A stretch of 64,000 bases of DNA from Deltaproteobacteria bacterium (GTDB taxonomy: Bacteria > Desulfobacterota > Binatia > DP-6), in assembly GCA_005888095.1 (NCBI GenBank), contig VBKF01000091.1, positions 1 through 64,000 on the forward strand. The letters run 5' to 3'. Under the pieces are notes generated by a model. That model searched no databases, had not been told where the DNA came from, and worked only from the letters and a program-made list of their open reading frames with translations. Both the position numbers and the translations under genes were made by a program. Below, piece after piece: positions 1 to 46,019 of this stretch (position 1 is its first letter; the number at the start of each line of letters is the position of its first letter).

Positions 1-572
1 AGCACCGCCCCGTGCAGGTGCCGGTAGCCCGGCGTCTCGGGCGTCAGCTCGAAGCTCGCCTGCACCGCGGCGGCCGAGCCGTCGGCCGAGACGAGCGTGC
101 CGACGTACGCCTCGTTCGAGAATGCGCGCCGCCGGACCTCCTCGGCGTCCGCCATGTCCGCGGGCGGGGTCTCCATGACGCGCTCCACCTCCATGCCGTC
201 GGCGGTGCCGCGGATGGCCTTCACCTGCGGCGCCGCCAGGCTCTGGAGGAGCGCCTGGTTCGCGCCCGGGATGCGCCGGATGCGCTCCGTGACCTCGGCG
301 AGCTTGGTCAGGAAGGCCGGCGTGAAGACGTGGCCGTCATGCGGGAAGAGGCCAACGACGACCAGGTTCTTGTCGCCGAAGATGCGGTGGACGTCGTTCA
401 GCGTCTGGATGAAGGGATGATCCTGGGGAAGCTGGCGGTCCGGGTCGACCTCGACCCGGAGGTGGGTCGCCGCCCGCCCGAGGAGGACCGTCGTTGCGAG
501 GACGGCGGCGAGCACCGTCCAGCGATGCCGAACCACCCAGCGTCCGTAGGCTGCGAGCAGGTTGGTGAGCAT
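1..572 (-). CDS. MMPL/RND-family exporter, N-terminal part (cut by window edge)
   Basis: The first 190 residues of an RND-superfamily permease of the MMPL/HAE3 type (proton-driven export of lipids or other hydrophobic molecules across the inner membrane). The sequence shows a short cytoplasmic start, one membrane helix at about residues 18-38 (WTVLAAVLATTVLLG), and then the beginning of the large periplasmic domain. The passage around DPDRQLPQDHPFIQTLNDV is typical of this family. The start is the ATG at 572, preceded by a strong GGAAAGGAG ribosome site. It follows the ferritin-like gene by 18 bases, so it is very probably the third gene of that operon. The rest lies outside the window, so the substrate cannot be judged from this gene alone. 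Confidence 0.85.
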   Translation of the reverse strand, partial: MLTNLLAAYGRWVVRHRWTVLAAVLATTVLLGRAATHLRVEVDPDRQLPQDHPFIQTLNDVHRIFGDKNLVVVGLFPHDGHVFTPAFLTKLAEVTERIRRIPGANQALLQSLAAPQVKAIRGTADGMEVERVMETPPADMADAEEVRRRAFSNEAYVGTLVSADGSAAAVQASFELTPETPGYRHLHGAV

Positions 573-590
573 GTGCGCTGTCTCCTTTCC

Positions 591-1235
591 TCACGCTGCC
601 GCGCGCTCGAGATACTCGTGGAAGGCGCCGTAGAACGCGGCATCGAGCTGGTCGAAGGCGTCCTGGAGACGCTCGAGCGTGGCCGCTACGAACCGAGGCG
701 AGAGACGGCGCTCGAAACGCTGGAGCCAGCTCCCCAGGTACTCGACGTGCCGCTCCTCGTCGCGGAGGATGCTGGCGATCACGGTCTGCGTGCCGGGATC
801 GCCGGTCAGCGCATCGTAGTTGGCGCAGATCTTGGCGGCCCCGTCCTTCTCCGGGATGTAGGCGAGCGCCACGCATTCCATGAGCTCGGCATCGCCCATC
901 GAGCCTCGTGCCATGTAGACCTGCTTCGGGTCGCGTGCCCGGCTCTGCTCGACGATCCGTTCCACGCGGTCGAGCTCTGGCGGGAGGCGACGGCAGGAGA
1001 AGCCGATCTCATTCATGCGCCGCAGGAGGAGGTAGGAGTGACGCGCCTCGTCCATCGCGTGCCTCGCCAGGTCCATCTTGAGCTGCGGGTCGGAGACGAG
1101 GTCCGTGAGCGTGAGAAGGTCCGCTCCACCTCTCACCTCCGACGCGCGGATCAGGTTCAGGATGGCTCCCGTGCCCCCGGCGCGGGCATGAACCATGCGG
1201 AGGAAGTCGACCATCTGCTCGTGCGTCGCTTGCAT
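591..1235 (-). CDS. ferritin-like di-iron protein
   Basis: A 214-residue, all-helical protein with the metal ligands of a ferritin-like di-iron four-helix bundle. Candidate ligands are E33, the D62-E-A-R-H66 motif, E120 and the E160-E-R-H163 motif, giving two EXXH-type half sites. Such proteins are oxygenases, oxidases or iron-storage proteins. The closest general resemblance is to rubrerythrin or di-iron oxygenase types, not 24-mer ferritin, but the subfamily is not certain. The ATG at 1235 lies 2 bases after the stop of the upstream acyltransferase, with an AGGAG site inside that gene, so the two are translationally coupled. Inference: it oxidises or desaturates the acyl product of the upstream enzyme, which the exporter then removes. 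Confidence 0.8.
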   Translation of the reverse strand: MQATHEQMVDFLRMVHARAGGTGAILNLIRASEVRGGADLLTLTDLVSDPQLKMDLARHAMDEARHSYLLLRRMNEIGFSCRRLPPELDRVERIVEQSRARDPKQVYMARGSMGDAELMECVALAYIPEKDGAAKICANYDALTGDPGTQTVIASILRDEERHVEYLGSWLQRFERRLSPRFVAATLERLQDAFDQLDAAFYGAFHEYLERAAA

Positions 1236-1237
1236 GC

Positions 1238-1969
1238 TCAGGCACTCCTCTTGAGCGGCTGGAACGCCGCCTGATTACCGAGGCCGGGCTCCGGCAGCCG
1301 TGCCGGCAGCACCACTTCGGGGTGGTCGATCTCGAAGAAGAAGGCCCAGTAGCGGTGGTCACTGTGCATGCCGACACCGCTGCGCAGATCGCAGGTGAGC
1401 AGCTCGTGCTCGCAGCCGCCGAGCTTCGTGTAGCGCGCGACGATCCCCGTGCGCCTGAACCTCATCCACTCGTAGCTCCAGATCCGCTCGGCCTTCGAGC
1501 ACACGATGGCGTGCTCGGCGCCGGTGGCCGCCACCACGAAGTGGGAGACGAGCTTGAAGAGGCCGAGCGCCACCACCGGCAGGAAGCGCTTGCTGTTCCG
1601 GTGCATCGGGAGGACCGCGAACCGGGTGATCTCGACGGCGCTGGCGGAGCGGAGCGCGGGCGGGAGGACGAGATACTCCTCGCACTCGAGTGGGCCCGCC
1701 GCGCGGGGCGTGACCCTCATAGACCCGACCGCCTCGCCCGTGCGCATGTCCTCGGCGAGCAGGAGCCAGGAACGGCCGTCGTACTCGTCGGGCACGGGCA
1801 CCTCGTAGCCGCAGGCGCCGCGATAGACCTGCCGGCGGACGTCGAGGGCGCGGGCGACGGATGCCGCATCCTCGCAGACGCTGAACCGGTAGCCGCGCAG
1901 CAGCCGGGTGAAGATCGATCGCTCCTTCGCGGGCCGATCGGGGAGCTGGGGAATTTCGGTGCTTTGCAT
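1238..1969 (-). CDS. autoinducer-synthase-fold N-acyltransferase (FeeM/LuxI-like GNAT)
   Basis: A 243-residue protein with the conserved pattern of the acyl-homoserine-lactone synthase and N-acyl-amino-acid synthase (FeeM) superfamily. It has a DEYD motif, then WLLL, a G-S-M-R motif, and E-I-T-R-F-A-V. These correspond to the Asp/Glu/Arg set that binds the amino substrate and the acyl-ACP in LuxI-type enzymes. Length fits FeeM-like proteins (LuxI is about 200). An in-frame extension reaches 2089, but the ATG at 1969 has an AGGAGG site 10 bases upstream and was chosen. First gene of an operon with a ferritin-like protein and an MMPL exporter. The product could be an N-acyl amino acid, an AHL-like signal or a surfactant. 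No LuxR-type receptor is in the window. Confidence 0.75.
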   Translation of the reverse strand: MQSTEIPQLPDRPAKERSIFTRLLRGYRFSVCEDAASVARALDVRRQVYRGACGYEVPVPDEYDGRSWLLLAEDMRTGEAVGSMRVTPRAAGPLECEEYLVLPPALRSASAVEITRFAVLPMHRNSKRFLPVVALGLFKLVSHFVVAATGAEHAIVCSKAERIWSYEWMRFRRTGIVARYTKLGGCEHELLTCDLRSGVGMHSDHRYWAFFFEIDHPEVVLPARLPEPGLGNQAAFQPLKRSA

Positions 1970-2073
1970 TGTGTGCGCCTCCTGGGCGGGTTCCGAAGCA
2001 ACCGCTGTGCCCGGTGCCGTAGGCGAAACAGCGCTGCAAATCCGGGGGCTTAGCGGCCGGGGCAGAGTGAACT

Positions 2074-2131: not shown

Positions 2132-2494
2132 TCAGCAGGACGCGAGCTGCTCGGCGAAGCCGCGGCCGAGGAGGTCGAGCGTCTGGCGGGGAAAGGCGCG
2201 AGAGAGGACCCGGGCCTTCTGGCCGGGGGAGCGCACGACGGCCGTCACCTCGACGTGGCTCTTGCCCGGGAGGTCCAGGACAGCGAGCTTCACGAGGCCG
2301 CGTCGAGCCGTCTCGCGCGCCTCGCGGAGCAGGCCGCGGAGCTCGCGATAGAGCCGCCCGCCCTCGACCGGCAGCCAGGTCGCCTCCGAGCACCGCAGCG
2401 TGAGCACGAGCTCACCGTCGGGGAACGCGGCGGACTCGGCGCGCAACGCGCGCCCGAGCGCGCAGTGGAGGCAGGTCCTCGTCACGTCGTCCAT
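2132..2494 (-). CDS. hypothetical protein with a possible kinase ATPase-like pattern
   Basis: A 120-residue protein I do not recognise. It starts MDDVTRTCLHCALGR, with Cys residues early and at the very end. The stretch YRELRGLLREARETA followed by VKLAVLDLPGKSHVEVTAVV vaguely resembles the N-box and following strands of a histidine-kinase ATPase (HATPase_c) domain, but key residues are not conserved, so this is only a hint. The ATG at 2494 was preferred over an upstream in-frame start at 2542 because the longer N-terminus is Arg-rich translated intergenic sequence. It is transcribed away from the kinase gene beginning at 2669. Confidence 0.5.
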   Translation of the reverse strand: MDDVTRTCLHCALGRALRAESAAFPDGELVLTLRCSEATWLPVEGGRLYRELRGLLREARETARRGLVKLAVLDLPGKSHVEVTAVVRSPGQKARVLSRAFPRQTLDLLGRGFAEQLASC

Positions 2495-2626
2495 TCCCTG
2501 CACACGCCGTGCCGAGCGCCGTGTGCCACCGCATGGTAGCAAGCATGAGGCTCACCACGGCGAAGACGCAGGAACCCCCGTTCCTGTCGCGTCACGCCGG
2601 TTCGCGCGAGTTCACGTCGCTGTGGC

Positions 2627-2655
2627 TTGAGACTCGGCACTCGCGACCGGAAAAT
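2627..2655 (+). promoter_or_regulatory. possible sigma-70 promoter of the kinase gene
   Basis: TTGAGA, 17 bases, GAAAAT, ending 14 bases before the chosen ATG at 2669. Weak by itself; supported only by position in a divergent intergenic gap. Confidence 0.25.
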
Positions 2656-2668
2656 CCACGTCAGACCC

Positions 2669-4753
2669 ATGCATCCTCACGCCCTCGTCCCGCTCGTCGC
2701 GGCGGTGGCGAATGCGATCATCTTCGCGCTCGTCCTGCGGGGCGGGATGAACGCCATCCGCCGCGTCTTCGCCTGGATGACGCTCACCGTCATCTCGTGG
2801 AACCTCGACATCTTCTCGCTCTACTACTTCCCCGACGTGCCCTCGGCGCTGTGGTGGAGCATGGTCTTCCGGACCGGCGTCTGCCTGGTCCCGGCGGCGG
2901 TCTTGCATTCCGTCTGCGTGCTGACGGGCGCCAAGGGACGCATCTGGTCGTCCCTGCTCGCGGCCGGTTACGCCACCGGCGCCTTCCTGGTGATCGCGAA
3001 CTTCCGGGGCGCGCTCGTCAGCCGGCTCACCCCGCACCCCTGGGGCTGGTACATCGAACCGGCGCCGCTCTACTCGATCATGACAGCGTTGATCCTGATC
3101 TACTTTTCGCTGTCGATCGGTCGCGTGGCGCATACCTATCGCCACCCGTCCGACGCCCGGCAGCGGACGCAGGCCAAGTTCTGGCTCCTCGCGATCGGCG
3201 TCTCGGGCCCCTTCGACCTCACCAATCTGCTCCCGCTCTACGGAATCAACGTCTACCCGCTGGGTAGCTTCGGAAACGTCGTCTACCTCGGGATCGTCGC
3301 CTACGCGATCGCCCGTCATCGGCTGATGGACGTCGACTACGTCGTCCGCAAGGCCGTCAGCTTCTCGCTCGCCGCCTCGGCCGTCCTCATTCCCGGCGGC
3401 ATGGCGCTCTTCGCCCTGAGTCGGGAGGTCGGCGGCGAGGGGCCCGTGATCGTCGCCTGCGCGGCGGTCGGACTGGCCCTCCTCTCCGTGATCCTGATCC
3501 CGACCTTCCAGGAGGCGCTCGAGACGCGCGTGCACCGCGCGTTCTTCCCGCAGCTCTACGACTATCGCCGGCGCCTGCAGGAGCTGCCCGCCGCGCTCGT
3601 TCATCTCGTCGACCGGAGCCAGCTGGTCAGGCGGCTCGGCGAGTCGCTCGCCGCCATCCTCGACGTCGAGACCTGTGAGATCTTCCTCCCGGACGAGAAC
3701 GGGCGCCGGCTGGCGCTCGCCTACCCGAGCCCGGGAGTCCCCGAGCCGCTCGCCGAAGCGATCGCTCGCGACCTCGAGCAGCTCGCCGAGCCCGTCCTCG
3801 CGAGCGAAGTCGAAACGCTCAGTCCGGTCGGGGCGAGCCTCTTCCGCACCCGCCGCTGGGAGGTGGGCATCCCCCTCCGCGTCAACGACCGCCTGAACGG
3901 CTTCATCGGCCTCGGACAGAAGAAGGACTTCCGCATCTTCTCGAGCGAGGACCTCCAGCTCCTGTCGGCGGTGGCGAGCGGCGCCACCGTCGCGCTCGAG
4001 AACGCGAGCCTCTCCCGCCAGCTCCGCCGCTCCGAGGCGGTGCTCGAGCGCGCCAACCGTCTCTCCTCGCTCGGCACGCTGGCCGCCGGCCTGGCGCACG
4101 AGATCCGCAACCCGCTCGTCGCGGTGAAGACCTTCCTCGACCTGCTGCCCCAGCGCCTGGACGACCGGCAGTTCCTGAGCGAGTTCCGCGAGCTCAGCCT
4201 GAGCGAGCTCAGGCGGGTGACCGACCTGATCGCCGACCTGCTGACGCTCGGCAAGTCGCGCACCACGGAGCGGCGGCCGGTGGATCTGCCCGTCACGCTC
4301 GAGCCGGTGATCAGGCTGATGGACACGACGGCCCGCAAGCGACAGGTGGAGCTCCACTCGCACTGGAAGCCCGACCTGCCGGCCGTGTCGGCGGATCCGG
4401 ACCAGCTGAAGCAGATCGTGCTGAACCTGCTCCTCAACGCCATCGAAACGAGCCCGGCCGGCGGGCGCGTGATGCTCGACGTCCGCGATGGCGCGGTCCT
4501 CGGGACGACGGCCGCCGTCGTGATGGAGGTCCGCGACCACGGCGCGGGCATCCCGGCGGATCAGCTGGAGCACATCTTCCATCCCTTCTTCACCACCAAG
4601 GAGACGGGCACGGGCCTCGGGCTGGCGCTCGTGCACCAGATGGTAGTGGACCACGGCGGGGAGATCGCCGTCGAGAGCACCGTCGGTCAGGGGACGGTCT
4701 TCCGCGTGACGCTGCCGGCGGCGCAGCTCGAGCTCAGGCGAACCGGGACCTGA
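2669..4753 (+). CDS. membrane sensor histidine kinase (7TM-GAF-HisKA-HATPase)
   Basis: A 694-residue sensor kinase. The first 220 or so residues form about seven membrane helices of the HisKA_7TM type. A GAF-like domain follows at about 310-445, then the dimerisation helix with the phospho-acceptor H477 in GLAHEIRNPL. The ATPase domain has N-box LLLNAIETS, DHGAGIP and GTGLGLAL. The ATG at 2669 was chosen; an in-frame TTG at 2627 would add 14 residues and overlaps the putative -35 element. It ends 3 bases from the convergent NtrC-type regulator gene. Its cognate regulator is not fixed by the sequence, though that neighbour is a fair guess. The sensed signal is unknown. Confidence 0.9.
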   Translation: MHPHALVPLVAAVANAIIFALVLRGGMNAIRRVFAWMTLTVISWNLDIFSLYYFPDVPSALWWSMVFRTGVCLVPAAVLHSVCVLTGAKGRIWSSLLAAGYATGAFLVIANFRGALVSRLTPHPWGWYIEPAPLYSIMTALILIYFSLSIGRVAHTYRHPSDARQRTQAKFWLLAIGVSGPFDLTNLLPLYGINVYPLGSFGNVVYLGIVAYAIARHRLMDVDYVVRKAVSFSLAASAVLIPGGMALFALSREVGGEGPVIVACAAVGLALLSVILIPTFQEALETRVHRAFFPQLYDYRRRLQELPAALVHLVDRSQLVRRLGESLAAILDVETCEIFLPDENGRRLALAYPSPGVPEPLAEAIARDLEQLAEPVLASEVETLSPVGASLFRTRRWEVGIPLRVNDRLNGFIGLGQKKDFRIFSSEDLQLLSAVASGATVALENASLSRQLRRSEAVLERANRLSSLGTLAAGLAHEIRNPLVAVKTFLDLLPQRLDDRQFLSEFRELSLSELRRVTDLIADLLTLGKSRTTERRPVDLPVTLEPVIRLMDTTARKRQVELHSHWKPDLPAVSADPDQLKQIVLNLLLNAIETSPAGGRVMLDVRDGAVLGTTAAVVMEVRDHGAGIPADQLEHIFHPFFTTKETGTGLGLALVHQMVVDHGGEIAVESTVGQGTVFRVTLPAAQLELRRTGT

Positions 4754-4756
4754 GCG

Positions 4757-6160
4757 TCACATCCCGAGCCGGCGCATCTTCTTCAGGAGCCCGCGGTACG
4801 TGATCCCGAGCTCCTCGGCGGCGCGCGTCTTGACGCCGCCCGCGCGGGCGAGGGCCGCCTCCACCTGCTCGCGCTCGAACGCCTCGGTGCGGCTTTGCAG
4901 GAGGCCGGGCGCCGCGCCGTCGGCAGCCCCTTCCTGCAGACGCTCGGAGAAGAGGTCCTCGGTGAGCGGCGCGCCGGGGTCGGCGAGCAGCACCGCGCGC
5001 TCGATCTCGTTGGCGAGCTCGCGCACGTTGCCCGGAAACGCGTAGCGGGAGAGCAGCGCGAGCGTCTCGTCGCTGGGCTCGCCGACGGGCTTCTTCAGCT
5101 GCGCCGCGAGCCGTCGCGCCAGATGCCGGGCGAGGGCCGGGATGTCCTCCCGCCGGTCGCGCAGCGGCGGCAGGCGGATCGGAAAGACGCGCAGGCGGTA
5201 GTACAGGTCCTCGCGGAAGCGGCCCGCCTTCACCTCGTCCTCGAGGCGACGGTTGGTGGCCGTGATCACCCGTACGTCGACCGTGCGGGCCCGGGTCTCG
5301 CCGACGGGGCGTATCTCGCCCTCCTGGAGCACCCGCAGGAGCTTCGCCTGGAGCGCCCCGCTGGTCTCGGAGATCTCGTCGAGGAAGAGCGTGCCGCCGT
5401 CGGCCACCTCGAAGAGCCCCTTCCGATCGGCGACGGCGCCGGTGAACGCGCCGCGCCGGTGGCCGAAGAGCTCGCTCTCGAGGATGCCCTCCGAGAAGGA
5501 CGCGCAGTTGACCGCCACGAAGAGGCGGTCCCGCCGGTCGCTCGCGGCGTGGATGGCGCGCGCGACCAGCTCCTTCCCGGTGCCGGTCTCGCCCTCGATC
5601 AGGACGGTGGTGGGCGACGGCGCCACCCGCGCCACCAGCGCCAGCACGTCGCGGATCGCGGCGCTCTCGCCGACGATCTCGTCCGGCGCCGCCGTCTCCT
5701 TGAGGTAGGTGTTCTCGGCGGCGAGGCGCTGGTTGGCGCGGCTGAGCTCCTGCAGCAGACGCGCGTTCTCGCGCGCCAGGTGGAACGCCTCGATGGCGCG
5801 GCGGAGTGTGAGCCTGAGCTCCTCGCTCTCCCACGGCTTGGTGACGTACCGATAGATGCGGCTCGTGTTGATCGCCCGCACGATCGCGTCGACGTCGGTG
5901 TAGCCGGTGAGCACGATGCGGTTGGCGTCCGGCCGGATCTCCATGGAGCGGGCGAGGAACTCCACGCCGCTCATCACCGGCATGCGCTGGTCGGCGACGA
6001 TGACGGCCGGGTCGTGCGCCTGGAGGAGCTGGAGCCCGCCGGCGCCGCTCTCGGCCGTCAGCAGCGCGAACTCGTCGCCGTAGTTGAACGTGAAGGCGCG
6101 GAGGATGTCCGGCTCGTCGTCGACCACGACCACCGGAAAGCGCCGGTAATCGAACTCCAC
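4757..6160 (-). CDS. sigma-54-dependent response regulator (NtrC family)
   Basis: A 467-residue regulator with the standard order of domains. The receiver is at 8-125, with DDE and phospho-acceptor D57 in VADQRM and a conserved Lys in VTKPW. An AAA+ sigma-54 activation domain follows at about 165-395: Walker [15 protein letters not shown] loop, Walker [11 protein letters not shown] Fis-type helix-turn-helix ends the protein ([23 protein letters not shown]). It should activate sigma-54 promoters after phosphorylation. The start at 6160 follows the PDZ-containing kinase by 8 bases, so the two form a two-component operon. The convergent kinase at 2669-4753 could be a second input. Confidence 0.95.
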
Positions 6161-6168
6161 CGGTCCCC

Positions 6169-8724
6169 CTATCCGTTGCCGCTCGCCGCCCTGTCAAGGG
6201 AAACGGCGGAGGCCTCGGTCGGCAGCACGATGCGGAACGTGGCGCCGGCGCGGGGCGCGCTCTCCACCTCGATCCGCCCGCCGTGGGCGGCGACGATGCC
6301 GTGCGCGATCGCGAGCCCGAGCCCGGTGCCGCCGCCGACGTCCTTGGTGGTGAAGAACGGGTCGAAGATCCGCCCGAGCACGTCGGCCGCGATGCCATGG
6401 CCGTCGTCGCGCACGGTCACGGTCACGACGTCGCCGTCGTGCCGCGTCCCGATCCAGACGTTCCCCGCTCCCTCGATCGCATCGCAGGCGTTGGCGAGCA
6501 CGTTCATGAAGACCTGGTTCACCTGGCCCGGGTCGCACTCGACGAGCGGCAGCGTGCCGTAGTCGCGGTGGATCGTGATGCGGTCGCGCCAGCGCGGCTC
6601 GAGGAGCCGGAGCGTCACCTCGAGCCCCTCGTGCAGGTCGACGAGCTTGCGGCTCGCCTCGTCGAGTCGGGAGAAGCTCCGCAGGTCCTTGACGATCGCC
6701 ACCGTCCGCTCCGCGCCGCGCGCCATGATGTCCGCGATGTCCTCGGCCTCGCGCAGCATCGACGCCACCTCGGGCGGTGCGCCCGCGGCCGCCTGTGCGA
6801 GCCGGCGGCGGAGCGGCGCCACGCTGGTGGCGATGAAGCTCACGGGGTTGTTGATCTCGTGCGCGACGCCGGCCACGAGCCGGCCGAGCGACGCCATCTT
6901 CTCGGAATGCACGAGCTTCGTCTCGGCGTTCTTGAGCTCGGTATAGGCGTCGGCCAGCTCGCGGTTCGCGTCCTGGAGCTGCGCCGTCCGCTCGCGCACG
7001 CGGTCCTCGAGCCGGAGGTTCAGCTCGGCGAGCGCCTCGTACGAGCTGGCGTTCTCGAGCGCGATCGCGGTGGAGTTGGCGAGCGCCCGCAGGAACTCGG
7101 CGTCGGCCGCGGTGTAGAAGAGACCCGAGCGCTTGGGCCCGGCCGTGAGGACGCCGACCACCTCCTCGCGCCGGCGGAGCGGCACGGCGACCTCGGCCCC
7201 GAGCGCCGCCATCGCCGCCCGCGCGGCGTCGTGGGCCTCCGGGGCCGGGTAGAGCTCGGCCGGATCGAGGCTGGTGAGCACGCGCCCGGCGCCCAGATGT
7301 CGGGCGAGCGACGGTGGGATCGTCGCCCCGCCGCCCACCTCGGCGAGCCGCCCGCCGTTCGCCACGAAGAGGCGCGTGCCGGTGTTCGGGATCGTCTCGT
7401 CGACGCAGTCCCGGACGAGCTCCCCGATGCGGTCGCGCTGCAGGGTCGCCGCGAGCTGGGCCCCGAGCGCGGCGAGCACACGCGGGCCGTCGTAGCGGGT
7501 GCCGAAGAAGACGAGGTCGACGAGCGCCTGGAGCCGGGTGCGCAGCGGGTTGAAGAGGAGCAGCACGGCGAGCGTGAAGACCACCGGGAAGGCAGGCGAC
7601 TCCGTCACCGCCCCCGCCTGCAGGATCAGGTTGAGCACCACGACGGCCGCGACGTACGCGGAGCCGACGGCCCCCGTGAGGACCAGGTAGTAGGCGCCGC
7701 GCTTCACCATCGCGTCGATCTCGAGGAGGTCGTGCTGCACGATCGCGTAGGCGACGGAGAGCGCGAAGAGAAAGGGCGTGAAGGCGGCGGTGTTCATGGC
7801 GACCCCGCCGCCGAGCAGCGCCGAGATCACCACGATCGATCCGGGAATGCCGAGCCCGAAGAGCACGCCGAGCGTGACCACCCGCACGCGCTGCCGGGCG
7901 AGCTGCGACCCCCCGCGCCAGTAGACCCAGACCAGGCGCGCGGTCAGCACCACGACCACGACGCCGAGGTAGATCATGTTGGCCGCGAGGAGGCTGGAGT
8001 ACGTCGAGGGCCGGTAGAGAAACGCCTCGTAGAGCACGAGGATCGCGAGCGAGAGCCCGTACCCCGCGTGCCTCCAGCGGGCGAAGCGATGTGTCTGCGG
8101 GAAGAGGAGCGCGAACTGCAACACCGCGGCCGGGAAGAACGTCTCCCCGACGACGTGGAGCCGGAAGAACGACGCGGGACCGTAGAGGTCCATGGCGGTG
8201 AGCAGGAAGAGGCTCATCGCCACCCCGACCATGAGGAACGCCCGCACGACCGGCGCCCGCGGCCGGAGCACCCACGCCACCAGGCCCGAGGCGAGGTACA
8301 TGGCGCCGTTCAGCAGGAAGGCGCCGAAGAGCAGCATCCAGTCGCGCAGCGTGAAGCGCTCGGCCGCGACGGTCACCTCGCGCTCGACGCCGCGGCGGGC
8401 GAGCCGATAGCGCACGGGCGTCCCCGGCGCCAGCGCGGCCACCCGCGCGTAGGCCTCCGCCGCCGAGCCCACCGCGACACCGTTCACGGCGACCACCTGG
8501 CTCTGGTAGAGCCCGGGGACCGAGGTGCCCGACCAGTTGGCCAGGCCGACGGAGGCGATCACGCGGTTGTCGAGGAGGACGAAGCCGGGGAACACGCGGC
8601 CCACCCAGGCGCTGCTCGTGATCGTCGTCCGGGTGGCGAGGACGATCGCCGCGAGGCCGATCGCGATCGCGCCCAGCCGCACGGCGGCCGACGCTCGCGG
8701 GGTAGTAAGGAAGCTCTCCGGCAT
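6169..8724 (-). CDS. PDZ-containing membrane histidine kinase, NtrB-like output
   Basis: An 851-residue kinase. One membrane helix (about 14-32) is followed by an extracytoplasmic PDZ-like segment (about 60-115, [10 protein letters not shown]). Several further helices run to about residue 370, then a GAF domain, a coiled coil ([17 protein letters not shown]), a HisKA region with H in GVAHEINNP, and a HATPase domain ([26 protein letters not shown]). It is the first gene of an operon with the NtrC-type regulator. The ATG at 8724 replaces an in-frame TTG at 8775 that would add only intergenic-like residues. The PDZ module suggests it senses peptides or misfolded envelope proteins; that is inference. 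Confidence 0.92.
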
Positions 8725-8805
8725 TCCCGTCCGCTTCGGGGGCGCAATCTTACGCAGCCGGCCCCCTGGCGCCAACCGCCGCCCAGACGACGCCCAGACG
8801 GCGGT

Positions 8806-16950: not shown

Positions 16951-19671
16951 CTACTTCCGGGTCAGCCCGACGGCGCGGATGCGCGGGCGACGCTGGTGTG
17001 CGGGCTCGGGCTCGTGACGCGTCAGTAGCTCCGCGAGCACCCGGTCGAGCGGCTTCGCGCGACCCGCGACGCTCGGGTCGGCGAGCACCGCGGCGAAGCC
17101 CTCCGCCGCATCGTCGGCGCACTCGACGAGGACGGCGTGGGGCGCGGCCTCGAGGCCGCCGAGGCGGGCCGCGATCAGGTAGCCGTCGCGGCGCGTGAGA
17201 CCGAGGTCCACCACCACCACCTCCGGCTGGACGACGGTGAGCAGGTCGCCGGCCTGCTTGCCGTCCCACGCCATCGACACGGAGGCGCCGAGCCGCGCGA
17301 GCGCCTGGCGCAGGCTCATGAGGGCATCCACATCGGTGCCCGCGGTGAGCACGCGGGTCCCGCGCCCGACGTGGCTGCCGAGCGTCGCGACGATCGCTTC
17401 GGGGTCGAGCGGGCAGCGCGACGCCTCGATCGTGCCGAGCGCGACGCCCCGGTCGGCGGCGGGCGTAGCCACGCAACCCCAGAAGCTCGCCGTGCAGCCG
17501 CTCGCCCTGAGGCTGTGGAGCGCTCCCAGGGCCCCGCGCGCCGCGAGGTTCACGACGACGCGCGCCGGCGCGATCTCGGTCACGCGGGCGGCGAGGTTCT
17601 CGCCCGGCGCGAGGACGACGACGTCGTTTCCGGCCGTGCCGCCCGACTCCCAGGCGGCGTCGCCATCGAGCACGACGACGCGCAGCGCTCCGCTGCCGGG
17701 CCGCGGCCGTCCCCCCGCCCCCGGTCCGGCGCCCACGGTGACGACCTGCATCGGTGCGCCGTCCGTCTCGCCTCGCGCCTCCTCGACCGGCGTCTCGACC
17801 GGCGGCCGCGCCGTCGCGAGGTGCTCGAGCTCGCGCTCGAGCGTCGCCACGCGTGCCGCCGCCTCCGCCGCCTGGCGTGCGTGTGCCGCCTCGAGCGCCC
17901 CGCGCGCCGCTTCCGCCTCGGCGAGCGCGGCCGCCAGACGTCCCCGCTCGGCCCGCTCCCGGGCGAGCGCCTCGTCGAGGCCGGCGCGCGCGGCGGCCTC
18001 GGCGGCCTGGCGATCGCGTTCGGCCTCGAGCCCGGCGACCGTCTCCCGCAGGCGGTCGCGCTCCGCCGCGAGGCTCTCGAGCTGCGCACCCAGCCCGGCG
18101 CTCTCCGCCACGCGTTCGCGGCCGACGGCCGCCGTCTGGTCGAGCTCGCGGCGCAGACGGGCGATCTCACGCTCGAGCCGTCCGTCCCGCTCGCGGGCCT
18201 CGTCCACCCGCGCGCGTGCCTCCGCGAGGGTGTCCTCGAGGCGCGTGCGCTCGCCGGCGGCGCCTGTCAGCTCGGCTTCGAGGCGCAGGATCTCGCTCTG
18301 CGCGCGGGCCGCCTCGTCCTCCAGCGCCTCGATCACGTGGGTGGTCTGCGCCAGCGCGATCCGCGTCGCCTCGACGTCCGCGTTCGCCGCCGCGTGCGCG
18401 CGCGCCGCCTCGTCCGCGGCCGCGTGCGCCCGCTCGAGTTCGGCCCGGCCGTCGCTCGCGCTGCGCTCCGCCGCCTCGCGCTCCTCGCGCAGGCGCCGCT
18501 CGTGCGCCAGCGTCGCGCGCAGCTCCTCCGCCGCCCGCTGGTGCGCCCGCTCCCGCTCGCGCGCAGCTTCCACGCGCCGGGCCGCGGCCGCCTCGCCGTC
18601 GGCCAGGCGCGCCTCCAGACGCTCAACCTGCCGCCGCTGCTCGGCCAGACTGGCGGCGGCCGCAGCCGCGGCCTCGGCGGCCACCTGGCGCGCGGCAGCG
18701 AGCTCGGCGCGCGCGCCCTCGCTCTGCTGCTGGGCCTCGGTCCGCGCGGCCTCGAGCGCCGCCACCCCGCGCGCCTGCTCGCTGCGCTCGGCGGCGGCGC
18801 CCCCGAGCGCCTCGGCCAGCCGCGCCCGCGCCCGCTCCGCCTCGGCAAGGGCGGCGGTGAGGGGCGTCACCTGGTCCGCGACACGGCGCGCCCCCTCGAG
18901 CTCGGCCGTCAAACGGGCCCGGTCGGCGGCGGCGGCATCGAGCGCGCTCCCGAGGCGCTCGACCTCGCCGGTGCGCGCCGCGAGCTCGGCGGCGAGTCGC
19001 TCGTGCTCGGCGAGCAACCGATCCCGCGCCGCGACGAGCCCGGCCGTCGCGGCGCTCGCGGCCGGCGATCCGGGCGGCGATCCTGCCGACGTCTCCGTCG
19101 CCAGCGGCCGGCGACGGGTCGCCTCGATCATGCGCGCGAGGTCGCCGAGCACCGGCTCCAGCGCCCGGACGTCGCGCTCGCCGAGGGCGCGCGGGGCGAC
19201 GGCGACCAGGATCAGGCTCCCGACCGGGGCCGGCCCCGCATTGAGCGGCAGGCAGGCGACCGTCCGGACCGAGGCCGCCGCCTCGATCAGTCGCGGCACG
19301 TAGCGGTTGCGGGCCGCGCTCTCGATCAGATACGCGCGGCCGTTCATGAGGCCGTGCAGCGGCATGTCCCACCCGGCCGGATCGCCTCGGCGGACCGTTC
19401 TCAGGCGGCGGCAACCCTCGTCCGAGAGCCCGCTCTCGGCGGCGAGCCTGAGCACCCCCTGGCGCGGGTCGAAGAGGCAGAGCGCGCCGGCGTGCACGCC
19501 GCTCTCCTCGAGGACTGCCTGCAGCGCCGGTTCGAGGGCCTCCTCGGGCGCCGCCTCGGCCGCGATGCGCGCCAGGCGCTCGGCCAGGCCGGGCGGGCGC
19601 GGACGGACGGGCTTGGGCGCGTCGGCCGGCGACCCGCCGGCTCGCGCGCGGCGCTTGCGGAACACGGGCAT
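16951..19671 (-). CDS. GAF, long coiled coil and receiver-like protein
   Basis: A 906-residue protein in three parts. A GAF domain lies at about 28-185 (GVHAGALCLFDPRQGVLRLAAESGL, TVACLPLNAG). About 450 residues of Ala/Glu/Arg-rich coiled coil with clear heptads follow. The C-terminal ~250 residues end in a receiver-like domain (VVVVDLGLTRRDGY with a possible phospho-Asp). The segment before it (VVVLDGDAAWESGG, about 640-770) may be a second degenerate receiver. The layout recalls polarity and cytoskeletal scaffold proteins such as FrzS or AglZ, which pair receivers and coiled coils, but with the order reversed. Role unknown; a signal-dependent scaffold is a reasonable guess. Confidence 0.8.
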   Translation of the reverse strand: MPVFRKRRARAGGSPADAPKPVRPRPPGLAERLARIAAEAAPEEALEPALQAVLEESGVHAGALCLFDPRQGVLRLAAESGLSDEGCRRLRTVRRGDPAGWDMPLHGLMNGRAYLIESAARNRYVPRLIEAAASVRTVACLPLNAGPAPVGSLILVAVAPRALGERDVRALEPVLGDLARMIEATRRRPLATETSAGSPPGSPAASAATAGLVAARDRLLAEHERLAAELAARTGEVERLGSALDAAAADRARLTAELEGARRVADQVTPLTAALAEAERARARLAEALGGAAAERSEQARGVAALEAARTEAQQQSEGARAELAAARQVAAEAAAAAAASLAEQRRQVERLEARLADGEAAAARRVEAARERERAHQRAAEELRATLAHERRLREEREAAERSASDGRAELERAHAAADEAARAHAAANADVEATRIALAQTTHVIEALEDEAARAQSEILRLEAELTGAAGERTRLEDTLAEARARVDEARERDGRLEREIARLRRELDQTAAVGRERVAESAGLGAQLESLAAERDRLRETVAGLEAERDRQAAEAAARAGLDEALARERAERGRLAAALAEAEAARGALEAAHARQAAEAAARVATLERELEHLATARPPVETPVEEARGETDGAPMQVVTVGAGPGAGGRPRPGSGALRVVVLDGDAAWESGGTAGNDVVVLAPGENLAARVTEIAPARVVVNLAARGALGALHSLRASGCTASFWGCVATPAADRGVALGTIEASRCPLDPEAIVATLGSHVGRGTRVLTAGTDVDALMSLRQALARLGASVSMAWDGKQAGDLLTVVQPEVVVVDLGLTRRDGYLIAARLGGLEAAPHAVLVECADDAAEGFAAVLADPSVAGRAKPLDRVLAELLTRHEPEPAHQRRPRIRAVGLTRK

Positions 19672-19794
19672 GGTCGTGGACCTCGGGAGCCTCGCTGCAA
19701 CCGACGTGCCGCCGCCAGGGCCGGCCGCGGAGGGCCCGGGCGGTCGGGACTCCCCGCCGAGCGTCCAGAAATGGACGCCGACGACGGGCAGGCG

Positions 19795-32555: not shown

Positions 32556-32690
32556 CAGCGTCACCGAAATGGCGGTCGTCACGCGGCGGCCCGCGCCCGC
32601 CCTGCGCCGCGCCTTGGCCCAGCGCAAGCAAGCGCGCGAATTCGTTTCGGTTCGCGACCCGTCCGCTCCTGGCACCCCGGTTGCACAACG

Positions 32691-32712: not shown

Positions 32713-32731
32713 GGCGCACCGAGGAGAGGAC

Positions 32732-34507
32732 GTGCGGACCATCAAGACGCTCACCATCGCCGCTGCACTCGCGACGATCGCGACCGGGGCGCGCGCCACC
32801 ACGTTCGTCGCCATGACGGAGCGGGCGCTCGCCCGCGCCGCCGATGCCATCGTGGTCGGCACGGTCCGCTACATCGAGACGGTCGCCGCCGCGGACGGCA
32901 CGATCAACACGCTCGTGACGGTCGAGGTGGAGCAGGAGGCGAAGGGCCACGTCGGCCGTCTCGTTACGCTCAAGCAACCAGGCGGCCGCGTGAGCGGCCG
33001 CCAGCTATGGATCGCCGGCTCGCCGACCTTCACGGTCGGTGATCGCGAGCTGCTGTTCCTGAGCGCGTACCGCGACGGCACCGCACGCACGACCGCGCTC
33101 GGCATGGGGCAGTTCCATCTCTCGACCAACCCGCTCACGGGCGTGACGCACGCCGAGCGGTCGCTCGACGGGCTCGTCGTCGGCGCCCGCAGCCCCCGCC
33201 GGCGCGTGCTGCTCTCGAGCCTGCTCAGGACCATCAGGCGAGCCGTCGGCGATGAGGAGGCGCGCGCGGCGGCGCCGCTCGTGACCGTGCCGCCGGAGGT
33301 TACCGACCCCGGTCTCGAGCGCGAGACCCTGGACGCCTTCACGCTGATGTCGGGCGCTCACGCGCGGTGGTTCGAGGCCGACGGCGGCCAGGCGGTCGTC
33401 TACCGCATGGACCCGGCCGGCGACAACGCGCTCGGCACCGTTGCCACGCTGGCGGCGGTCGACGGGGCGCTCGCCGCCTGGACGAACGTCACGGGCGCCA
33501 GCATCCGGCTCGAGCGCGGCAGCACGGCCGCGCCGGCGCCGCTCCGCTGCGACGGTGTGTCGCAGCTCGTCTTCAACGATCCGTTCCGCGAGATCCCCGA
33601 TCCGGTCTCCTGCAGCGGCGTGCTGGCGCTCGGCGGGTTCTGCACCACGTCGGAGACCGACGTCGTCAACGGCACGACCTTCTACCGCATCACCGAGGGC
33701 AACGTCACCTTCAACAACGGCTTCGGCGCCTGCTCTTTCTGGAACCAGACCAACCTGGCGGAGGTCGCGACGCACGAGATCGGTCACACCATCGGCCTCG
33801 GCCACTCCTCGGAGAACGACAACGAGCCGGACCCGGTCCTGAAGGACGCGACGATGTACTACCGCGCGCACTTCGACGGCCGCGGCGCGGCGGTCCACGC
33901 CGACGACATGGCCGGCGTGCGGTTCATCTATCCGGGCGCGACGGACCCCGGGGTGCCGGATCAGGATGGCGACGGCGTCGCGGATGCCCAGGACAACTGT
34001 CCGGGCATGGCCAATGCCTCACAGACCGACACCGACGGGGACGGCGAGGGCGACCTCTGCGACCCATGCCCGCTCATCGCCGGCCCGGCCGGCGACACGG
34101 CCTGCGCACCGATCTTCGTGAGCCGCCTCACGGTGACGCTCGGCAAGCGAAGCCGCCTCGTCTGGCAGGGGTCGATCGCGCTGCCGGACGGCGCGGCGAC
34201 GACGGCGGCGCATGCGCTCCTGGTGAATGCCGGCGGCGTCGTCATCGACACCGCAATGGGCGGAGCGCTCGGCGCCGGCGGGCGCCTGCCGGGCCGGCTG
34301 CGCTACCGCAGCGACCAGGGGCTGATCACGCTCCGCCGCACGCGCGGCGGCACGTACCAGGCGCGCGTCGTCGTCCGCCACCCGCATCTCTCGATGGCGG
34401 GCGCCCCGGTGATGAGCGCGAGCCTCGAGGTCGGCGCGACCGCCTTCACGTCGTCCCTGAGCTGTGCCGAGATGCGCGGCGGCCGCCGCGTGCGCTGCCG
34501 CGGCTGA
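32732..34507 (+). CDS. secreted matrixin-type metalloprotease
   Basis: A 591-residue exported protein. Signal sequence at 1-22 (IKTLTIAAALATIATGARA). A domain of unknown fold up to about 200 is followed by a matrixin-type catalytic domain at about 215-415 with the zinc motif H348-E-I-G-H352-T-I-G-L-G-H358. A thrombospondin type-3-like calcium segment (DQDGDGVADAQDNCPG, DTDGDGEGDLCDPCP) follows, and a beta-rich C-terminal domain with two Cys. Such proteins digest extracellular or host proteins. GTG start preceded by GAGGAGAGG. No inhibitory propeptide is obvious. It lies just downstream of repeat copy 1. Confidence 0.88.
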   Translation: MRTIKTLTIAAALATIATGARATTFVAMTERALARAADAIVVGTVRYIETVAAADGTINTLVTVEVEQEAKGHVGRLVTLKQPGGRVSGRQLWIAGSPTFTVGDRELLFLSAYRDGTARTTALGMGQFHLSTNPLTGVTHAERSLDGLVVGARSPRRRVLLSSLLRTIRRAVGDEEARAAAPLVTVPPEVTDPGLERETLDAFTLMSGAHARWFEADGGQAVVYRMDPAGDNALGTVATLAAVDGALAAWTNVTGASIRLERGSTAAPAPLRCDGVSQLVFNDPFREIPDPVSCSGVLALGGFCTTSETDVVNGTTFYRITEGNVTFNNGFGACSFWNQTNLAEVATHEIGHTIGLGHSSENDNEPDPVLKDATMYYRAHFDGRGAAVHADDMAGVRFIYPGATDPGVPDQDGDGVADAQDNCPGMANASQTDTDGDGEGDLCDPCPLIAGPAGDTACAPIFVSRLTVTLGKRSRLVWQGSIALPDGAATTAAHALLVNAGGVVIDTAMGGALGAGGRLPGRLRYRSDQGLITLRRTRGGTYQARVVVRHPHLSMAGAPVMSASLEVGATAFTSSLSCAEMRGGRRVRCRG

Positions 34508-45481: not shown

Positions 45482-46019
45482 ATGTCACGCTATCTCGACT
45501 CTACATCCGCAGGCAGGGGAACCAAGAAGCGTTCCAGAGCCGGGTCGTCGCAGGAGCGGGAAAAAATCGAGAGCGCGGAGCCTCGCACGCTACTTTCCCA
45601 ACGCCGTCCGTTCACGGTTGTCCGTTCGCGCGAGCCGCTGCACGCCACCGGCGGCGCGCCGCTGGCTAGCCTGCTAGCGGATCCATGCCGGATCCGTACG
45701 GACGGACTCGGCCGCGCTTCCGGACATCGTCGGACGAAGCCGCCTCGCCACGCGAGTGAGCATTCACAGATGACCAGGACTCTTCGGCGCGGCGCGAGGG
45801 CCAGTCGAGGATCAGGTCCACCACGGAGAAGAACGGAAGCGTCAGAGCCGCCAGGAAGTCGTCCATGCCCGACGGTATGTGCAACCGGCGTGCCGACTGC
45901 CGTGGGGAAGCATCCACGCCTCGGGGACGGCAACTACTTCCGCTGGCCGCATTCCTGAAGCTGCGCCCGCGCCTCACACGGTGCAGCGCCGCGACTGCGG
46001 CCGGTCCGGCGATCGCGGC
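45482..46019. other. intergenic stretch upstream of the riboswitch
   Basis: About 540 bases with lower GC than the surroundings. It must hold the promoter of the riboswitch transcript; a weak TTGGTT, 16 bases, TAGAGT on the minus strand ends at about 45498. Inverted repeat GGATCC-ATGCC-GGATCC at about 45679-45695. A 66-codon frame at 45866-45666 (minus) and one at 45443-45958 (plus) lack ribosome sites and family signs. I see no convincing gene here. Confidence 0.5.

Follow-up and report, generated by a model that had tools for sequence, protein, structure and literature searches.

Background

What N-acyl amino acid synthases do for the cell is still not clear (PMC4897644); the fact that they are linked to PEP-CTERM/exosortase loci has hinted at a tie with surface proteins (Craig 2011, as cited in PMC4897644). 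The promoters of PEP-CTERM genes are built from an upstream motif, a spacer with a mean length of 62.8 nt and a -24/-12 site (BMC Biol 2006, PMC1569441). In Stieleria maiorica the stieleriacine cluster encodes, besides its N-acyl amino acid synthase, a fatty-acid desaturase, an oxidoreductase and several proteins that are putative transporters (PMC7293339), and the Tyz cluster of Mycobacterium tuberculosis couples amino acid N-acylation to a subsequent O2-dependent oxidation (PMC10404671).

The locus described here, from an uncultured soil bacterium, joins a FeeM-type N-acyltransferase gene to two further genes, one encoding a ferritin-like protein and the other an MMPL transporter, next to PrsK/PrsR-like regulators. 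We conclude, with a probability of roughly 60%, that this operon makes a long-chain N-acyl-amino compound and exports it to the envelope or the outside under control of a sigma-54 switch. Of such compounds, an N-acyl amino acid lipid is the most likely product.

Organization and conservation of the operon

The first base of the window (the whole stretch of DNA analysed, 64 kb) is also the first base of contig C91 in assembly G000 (5.46 Mb). The relevant features are the following.

3-572, minus strand: MMPL/HAE3-type RND transporter, N-terminal 190 aa, third gene of the operon (assigned from orthologues)
591-1235, minus strand: ferritin-like putative di-iron protein, 214 aa, second gene (ligand pattern)
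1238-1969, minus strand: N-acyltransferase of the FeeM type, 243 aa, first gene (Pfam, fold, invariant residues)
1997-2012, minus strand: sigma-54 -24/-12 promoter GGGCACAGCGGTTGCT ahead of the operon (agrees with the consensus at 10 of 12 positions)
2069-2080, no strand: palindrome GAACCCGAGTTC, located about 57 bp ahead of the promoter and a candidate for the upstream activating site of the response regulator
2132-2542, minus strand: open frame of 136 aa between operon and kinase gene, coding status uncertain
2572-2583, no strand: second GAACN4GTTC palindrome, immediately ahead of the kinase gene; the window contains no others besides these two
2627-4753, plus strand: PrsK-like membrane histidine kinase (7TM-GAF-HisKA-HATPase, from Pfam domains); the coding sequence may in fact begin downstream of 2627
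4757-6160, minus strand: PrsR-like, sigma-54-activating response regulator (Response_reg, Sigma54_activat and HTH_8)
6169-8775, minus strand: second histidine kinase, adjoining the response regulator gene in most relatives

The original prediction of three tightly coupled genes was confirmed: the gaps measure 2 nt (acyltransferase to ferritin-like gene) and 18 nt (ferritin-like gene to MMPL gene), and five genomes from three genera (G000, G001, G002, G004 and G006) share the order, which is therefore not due to chance. The operon starts at the ATG at 1969 and not at the start of the longer open reading frame at 2089, because a ribosome-binding site and the promoter fall between both. The transporter gene is cut by the contig end, so that only 190 residues are encoded in the window; the C-terminal part is located on contig C55 of the same assembly (positions 1-1509), where it matches residues 298-799 of the G002 orthologue with 92% identity. 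The gene 3' of the transporter gene on that contig runs in the opposite direction and the operon therefore appears to consist of three genes. For the 136-aa frame no family matches were found, and its homologues were restricted to two loci (L018 and L019), so that it is kept solely within the genus.

The acyltransferase gene was found in all seven genomes of the family, and one further close copy was found in G036 among 58 near genomes. Conservation of the full gene order, which the original prediction had proposed as a check, held for the five genomes mentioned and failed for the remainder: in G003 the MMPL gene directly follows the acyltransferase gene and the ferritin-like gene is missing, in G005 the acyltransferase gene stands alone on one contig and the MMPL gene lies between the kinase and regulator genes on another, and in G036 the acyltransferase and MMPL genes lie apart.

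The ferritin-like protein and its apparent exchange for a desaturase

The putative metal ligands of the ferritin-like protein (E33, E63xxH66, E129 and E160xxH163) share columns with those of wider rubrerythrin/ferritin-like relatives. No Pfam family scored above its cut-off (Ferritin 16.6, cut-off 24.5; DUF455 23.6, cut-off 34.3), and FA_desaturase_2, the family of soluble acyl-ACP desaturases, gave no match at E-values up to 1. An AlphaFold model built from the single sequence was set aside (pLDDT 43.6). The complete E..ExxH..E..ExxH set is present in three of the five homologues. One ligand is lost in the G006 protein (L024, E33K), and the G004 gene (L022, 6580-7128, minus strand) lacks the N-terminal helix, through a frameshift, a deletion or an assembly fault; a working di-iron centre is therefore not universal.

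The ferritin-like gene appears, from the sequence comparison, to be swapped for a fatty-acid desaturase gene in relatives. In a search of nine genomes with the G003 desaturase, orthologues (57-60% identity) were found besides G003 only in G005 and G036, and these three are exactly the genomes that have a close acyltransferase gene and no ferritin-like gene. The five genomes with the ferritin-like gene contain at most paralogues of 31-34% identity. The G036 desaturase gene follows the MMPL gene at about 30 nt in the same direction, and that of G005 lies near its copy of the kinase gene of this locus. For independent genomes a perfect five-to-three split would have a probability of 1 in 56, but these genomes are not independent. 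The mutual exclusion is based on eight genomes, seven of them from one family and two only 80-82% complete. Of all the evidence, this split argues best for an action of the ferritin-like protein on the acyl chain.

On this basis we tentatively propose that the ferritin-like protein may be a new type of soluble di-iron enzyme that desaturates or hydroxylates acyl chains in an exosortase-free, sigma-54-controlled N-acyl lipid pathway, and may be evolutionarily interchangeable with a membrane fatty-acid desaturase, although we consider it more probable that this specific proposal is wrong than that it is right. The strongest rival for the second step is a non-catalytic ferritin-like protein, i.e. 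a co-transcribed stress or iron-binding protein, with the acyltransferase and the transporter alone forming the unit. The direct succession of these two genes in G003, the lost ligand and helix in G006 and G004 and the rubrerythrin/ferritin-like nature of the nearest wider relatives are in line with such a role, which we nevertheless regard as rather doubtful: the gene stands between the other two in five genomes, full-length orthologues were found only in these five among 148 genomes of the class and never outside the operon, and the distribution is complementary to that of the desaturase.

Regulators and promoter

The PrsK-like kinase, the PrsR-like regulator and the second kinase flank the operon in relatives as well, where contigs extend far enough. 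The kinase matched TIGR02916 (PrsK) over its full length with 139 bits (cut-off 300) and the regulator matched TIGR02915 (PrsR) with its full architecture and 353 bits (cut-off 502.6), scores that rule out strict membership of either family.

The window contains two GAACN4GTTC palindromes (0.52 expected), both in the region between acyltransferase and kinase. A near-consensus sigma-54 -24/-12 site precedes ten out of ten close acyltransferase genes, and the palindrome is found upstream of that promoter in eight of them, at a spacing of about 48-66 bp (mostly 55-57). In random 200-bp stretches a sigma-54 site was present in about 1.5%, a palindrome in 2% and both in the right order in 0.5%, a conservative background since the pool contained the acyltransferase promoters themselves. 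The composite pattern of promoter and palindrome yielded 16 matches in eight genomes against none for the reversed control; a scan with shorter spacing brought four more sites and, as before, nothing for the control. In a class-wide scan 14 matches against no control matches fell in the seven family genomes and the numbers elsewhere were near background, so that single matches there mean little.

The adjacent PrsK/PrsR-like sigma-54 two-component system thus most likely controls the operon, with the response regulator probably binding at the palindrome. The remark in the original prediction that a LuxR receptor is absent holds for the neighbours examined and overlooks these adjoining regulators.

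Further near-consensus sigma-54 sites occur in the window. A strong one without palindrome (32671-32684, plus strand) precedes a gene (32729-34507, plus strand) for a putatively secreted, metalloprotease-like protein that contains thrombospondin type 3-like repeats. Two others lie at 19697-19710 and 45881-45894 (both minus strand), the former upstream of a gene for a 906-aa protein with weak SMC-type matches only (16951-19671, minus strand).

Genes sharing the promoter signature

The regulon was sought by the pattern alone and is probably incomplete. In G000 the signature adjoins the operon and an acyltransferase paralogue on contig C165. It was also found next to genes for lipase-like hydrolases (G000, G001 and G004), an ABHD18-type hydrolase (G001), the unlinked MMPL orthologue (G005), and a FabF-like KAS and an FA_desaturase (G003). 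The theme of the regulon is the supply, modification, hydrolysis and export of acyl chains. Matches before an integrase gene (G000) and a gene for an HTH protein (G003) have no evident link to the pathway and may be due to chance, and one shorter-spaced match in G000 (contig C113) has no clear target gene.

The transporter

The part of the transporter in the window is 91-95% identical to its orthologues in the genus, and the full-length G002 orthologue matched MMPL (PF03176) with 165 bits (cut-off 20.5). The protein resembles HAE3, ActII and HpnN-type transporters, each below the curated cut-off. Orthologues are widespread in the class without the acyltransferase, and the promoter signature was looked for and found absent at the orthologues in G036, G011, G050 and G056; the transporter was therefore rejected as a marker for the system. 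In relatives, genes for LolA-like and DUF1302 proteins are found near the MMPL orthologues. In G036 (contig C70, L157, 12435-19098) the MMPL-desaturase pair adjoins genes for a LolA-like protein, a DUF1302 protein and a PqiC-like lipoprotein, possibly a set for outer-membrane lipid export.

The acyltransferase and the nature of the product

The acyltransferase matched the Pfam family FeeM (PF21926) with 29.8 bits (cut-off 27). Its invariant residues are R45/R46, Y49, D64, R85, E113 and R116. A profile of nine homologues had AHL synthases as its best solved structures, reached only at an E-value of 0.003, and aligned the EITRF stretch of the acyltransferase opposite ELSRF of TofI. An AlphaFold model built from six sequences (pLDDT 78) matched RpaI, BjaI, TofI, LasI and FeeM in a fold search, with query-normalised TM-scores of 0.54-0.59 for RpaI, BjaI and FeeM against about 0.5 for other GNATs; the best E-value went to one unrelated GNAT with a lower query-normalised TM-score. 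The predicted fold hence groups with FeeM and the AHL synthases and not with unrelated GNATs, in agreement with the FeeM/LuxI-type fold originally proposed for this gene and with the structural check suggested for it.

G000 encodes a second, solitary FeeM-type acyltransferase (the paralogue on contig C165; L020, 5193-5918, minus strand), which scored 32.8-34.4 bits against PF21926, above the cut-off, has its own sigma-54 site and palindrome, and lies near sulfotransferase-like and amidohydrolase genes. A profile scan of a public contig set returned only five loci; the relatives come from metagenome-assembled genomes that carry the label Deltaproteobacteria and were obtained from 30 cm soil samples and a water-column sample. 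One of the five loci, with an acyltransferase of 50% identity to that of the window, belongs to a metagenome-assembled genome labelled Chloroflexi (L032, 9914-15828), which suggests transfer or misbinning; its neighbours are ABC transporter genes and a gene resembling KAS III. A more distant Fee-like cluster in G032 (contig C30, L026, 2176-10203) comprises genes for an MMPL protein, a KAS, an acyl-CoA dehydrogenase, an ACP, a FeeM homologue and a PrsK-like kinase; that genome does carry exosortase-family genes. The cluster gives distant support for N-acyl lipid synthesis and export, as does the placement of MMPL orthologues elsewhere beside LolA-like and DUF1302 genes.

The strongest rival for the product is an aminolipid of the ornithine-lipid kind, in which an OlsB-like acyltransferase would form a lyso-aminolipid that the transporter places in the outer membrane. 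The acyltransferase indeed scored above the cut-off of Acetyltransf_5 (PF13444; 25.4 bits, cut-off 22.4), the family of OlsB (PMC11631085). However, this score is lower than that for FeeM, and no OlsA/PlsC-type O-acyltransferase turned up in the operon or in the set of regulon targets identified, which makes an aminolipid unlikely.

The original prediction also considered an AHL-like quorum-sensing signal, i.e. an amino acid given an acyl chain, oxidised and secreted by the exporter. Such a signal is possible but unsupported, and we consider it very improbable: the fold and the conserved residues are common to AHL synthases and FeeM-type products can be bioactive (PMC7293339), but Autoind_synth (PF00765, the LuxI family of AHL synthases) gave no match at E-values up to 1, characterised FeeM-type enzymes yield long-chain products, the MMPL/HAE3 exporter and the co-regulated KAS, desaturase and lipase genes indicate lipids, and a LuxR-type gene is absent among the neighbours examined.

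An arm of a PEP-CTERM/exosortase surface-protein system, a setting reported for N-acyl amino acid synthases elsewhere (Craig 2011, as cited in PMC4897644), would fit the PrsK/PrsR-like regulators, the sigma-54 promoter with a motif about 60 bp upstream and the FeeM-type enzyme, but is largely refuted for this family of genomes and is the least probable reading of all, as no exosortase was detected by TIGR02602 in G000 or by PF09721 in G000-G006, and the kinase, the regulator and the acyltransferase all remain under the cut-offs of the corresponding families (for the acyltransferase TIGR03694, the PEP-CTERM/exosortase-associated acyltransferase, 23.5 bits, cut-off 111.95).

Proposed pathway

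In the N-acyl lipid pathway that we propose, the FeeM-type enzyme would move an acyl chain from acyl-ACP onto the amino group of an amino acid or amine, the ferritin-like di-iron protein would desaturate or hydroxylate the acyl chain (a step that the membrane fatty-acid desaturase would take over in relatives), and the MMPL transporter would take the product out of the inner membrane. The PrsK-like kinase would phosphorylate the PrsR-like regulator, which at GAACN4GTTC would activate the sigma-54 promoter. The succession of making, oxidising and exporting, as originally put forward, is the best reading of the operon; the swap with the desaturase lends indirect support to the oxidation step, against which stand the homologues with a lost ligand or helix. 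The proposal draws on family-level identities, the operon and its conservation, the promoter with its palindrome, the common signature and the mutual exclusion in eight genomes, all read from sequence, and from these we infer the substrates, the product, the chemistry of the second step, the direction of transport and the binding of the regulator to its site.

The association of a FeeM-type gene with PrsK/PrsR-like regulators in genomes without a detected exosortase, together with the occurrence of the signature at KAS, desaturase, lipase and MMPL genes, defines a regulon through which an N-acyl lipid pathway can be tested, and yields a candidate for a new oxidative enzyme.

Comparison with known systems

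In a literature search whose coverage left out most subscription papers, we found no description of ferritin-like and MMPL partners for a FeeM-type enzyme, or of such sigma-54 control. With the known N-acyl amino acid synthases (e.g. Nas354; PMC4897644) the acyltransferase has in common the fold and the catalytic-type glutamate and arginines, and the proximity to ACP and KAS genes reported for them is found here in a distant relative; they differ from the present locus with its ferritin-like and MMPL partners under sigma-54 control. The PrsK-PrsR system (PMC1569441) is alike in its membrane kinase and sigma-54 response regulator and in the build of its promoters (upstream motif, spacer of about 60 bp and -24/-12 site), whereas here no exosortase was found, the motif is GAACN4GTTC and the targets are lipid genes instead of PEP-CTERM proteins. 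The transporter is similar to the HpnN/BstA hopanoid and sterol RND transporters of the HAE3 family, though below their cut-offs; by score it is not a member, and its presumed substrate is an N-acyl lipid.

The stieleriacine cluster resembles the locus in its gene content, but leads to N-acylated tyrosine derivatives and has, in the accessible part of its description, neither a ferritin-like protein nor a sigma-54 pair (PMC7293339). The Tyz cluster is similar in the order of its reactions, but uses a flavin enzyme as the oxidase and a ThiF homologue that cyclises the product (PMC10404671). The parts of the locus are thus of known kinds, whereas their combination, the promoter signature and the apparent exchange of the ferritin-like protein for a desaturase look new.
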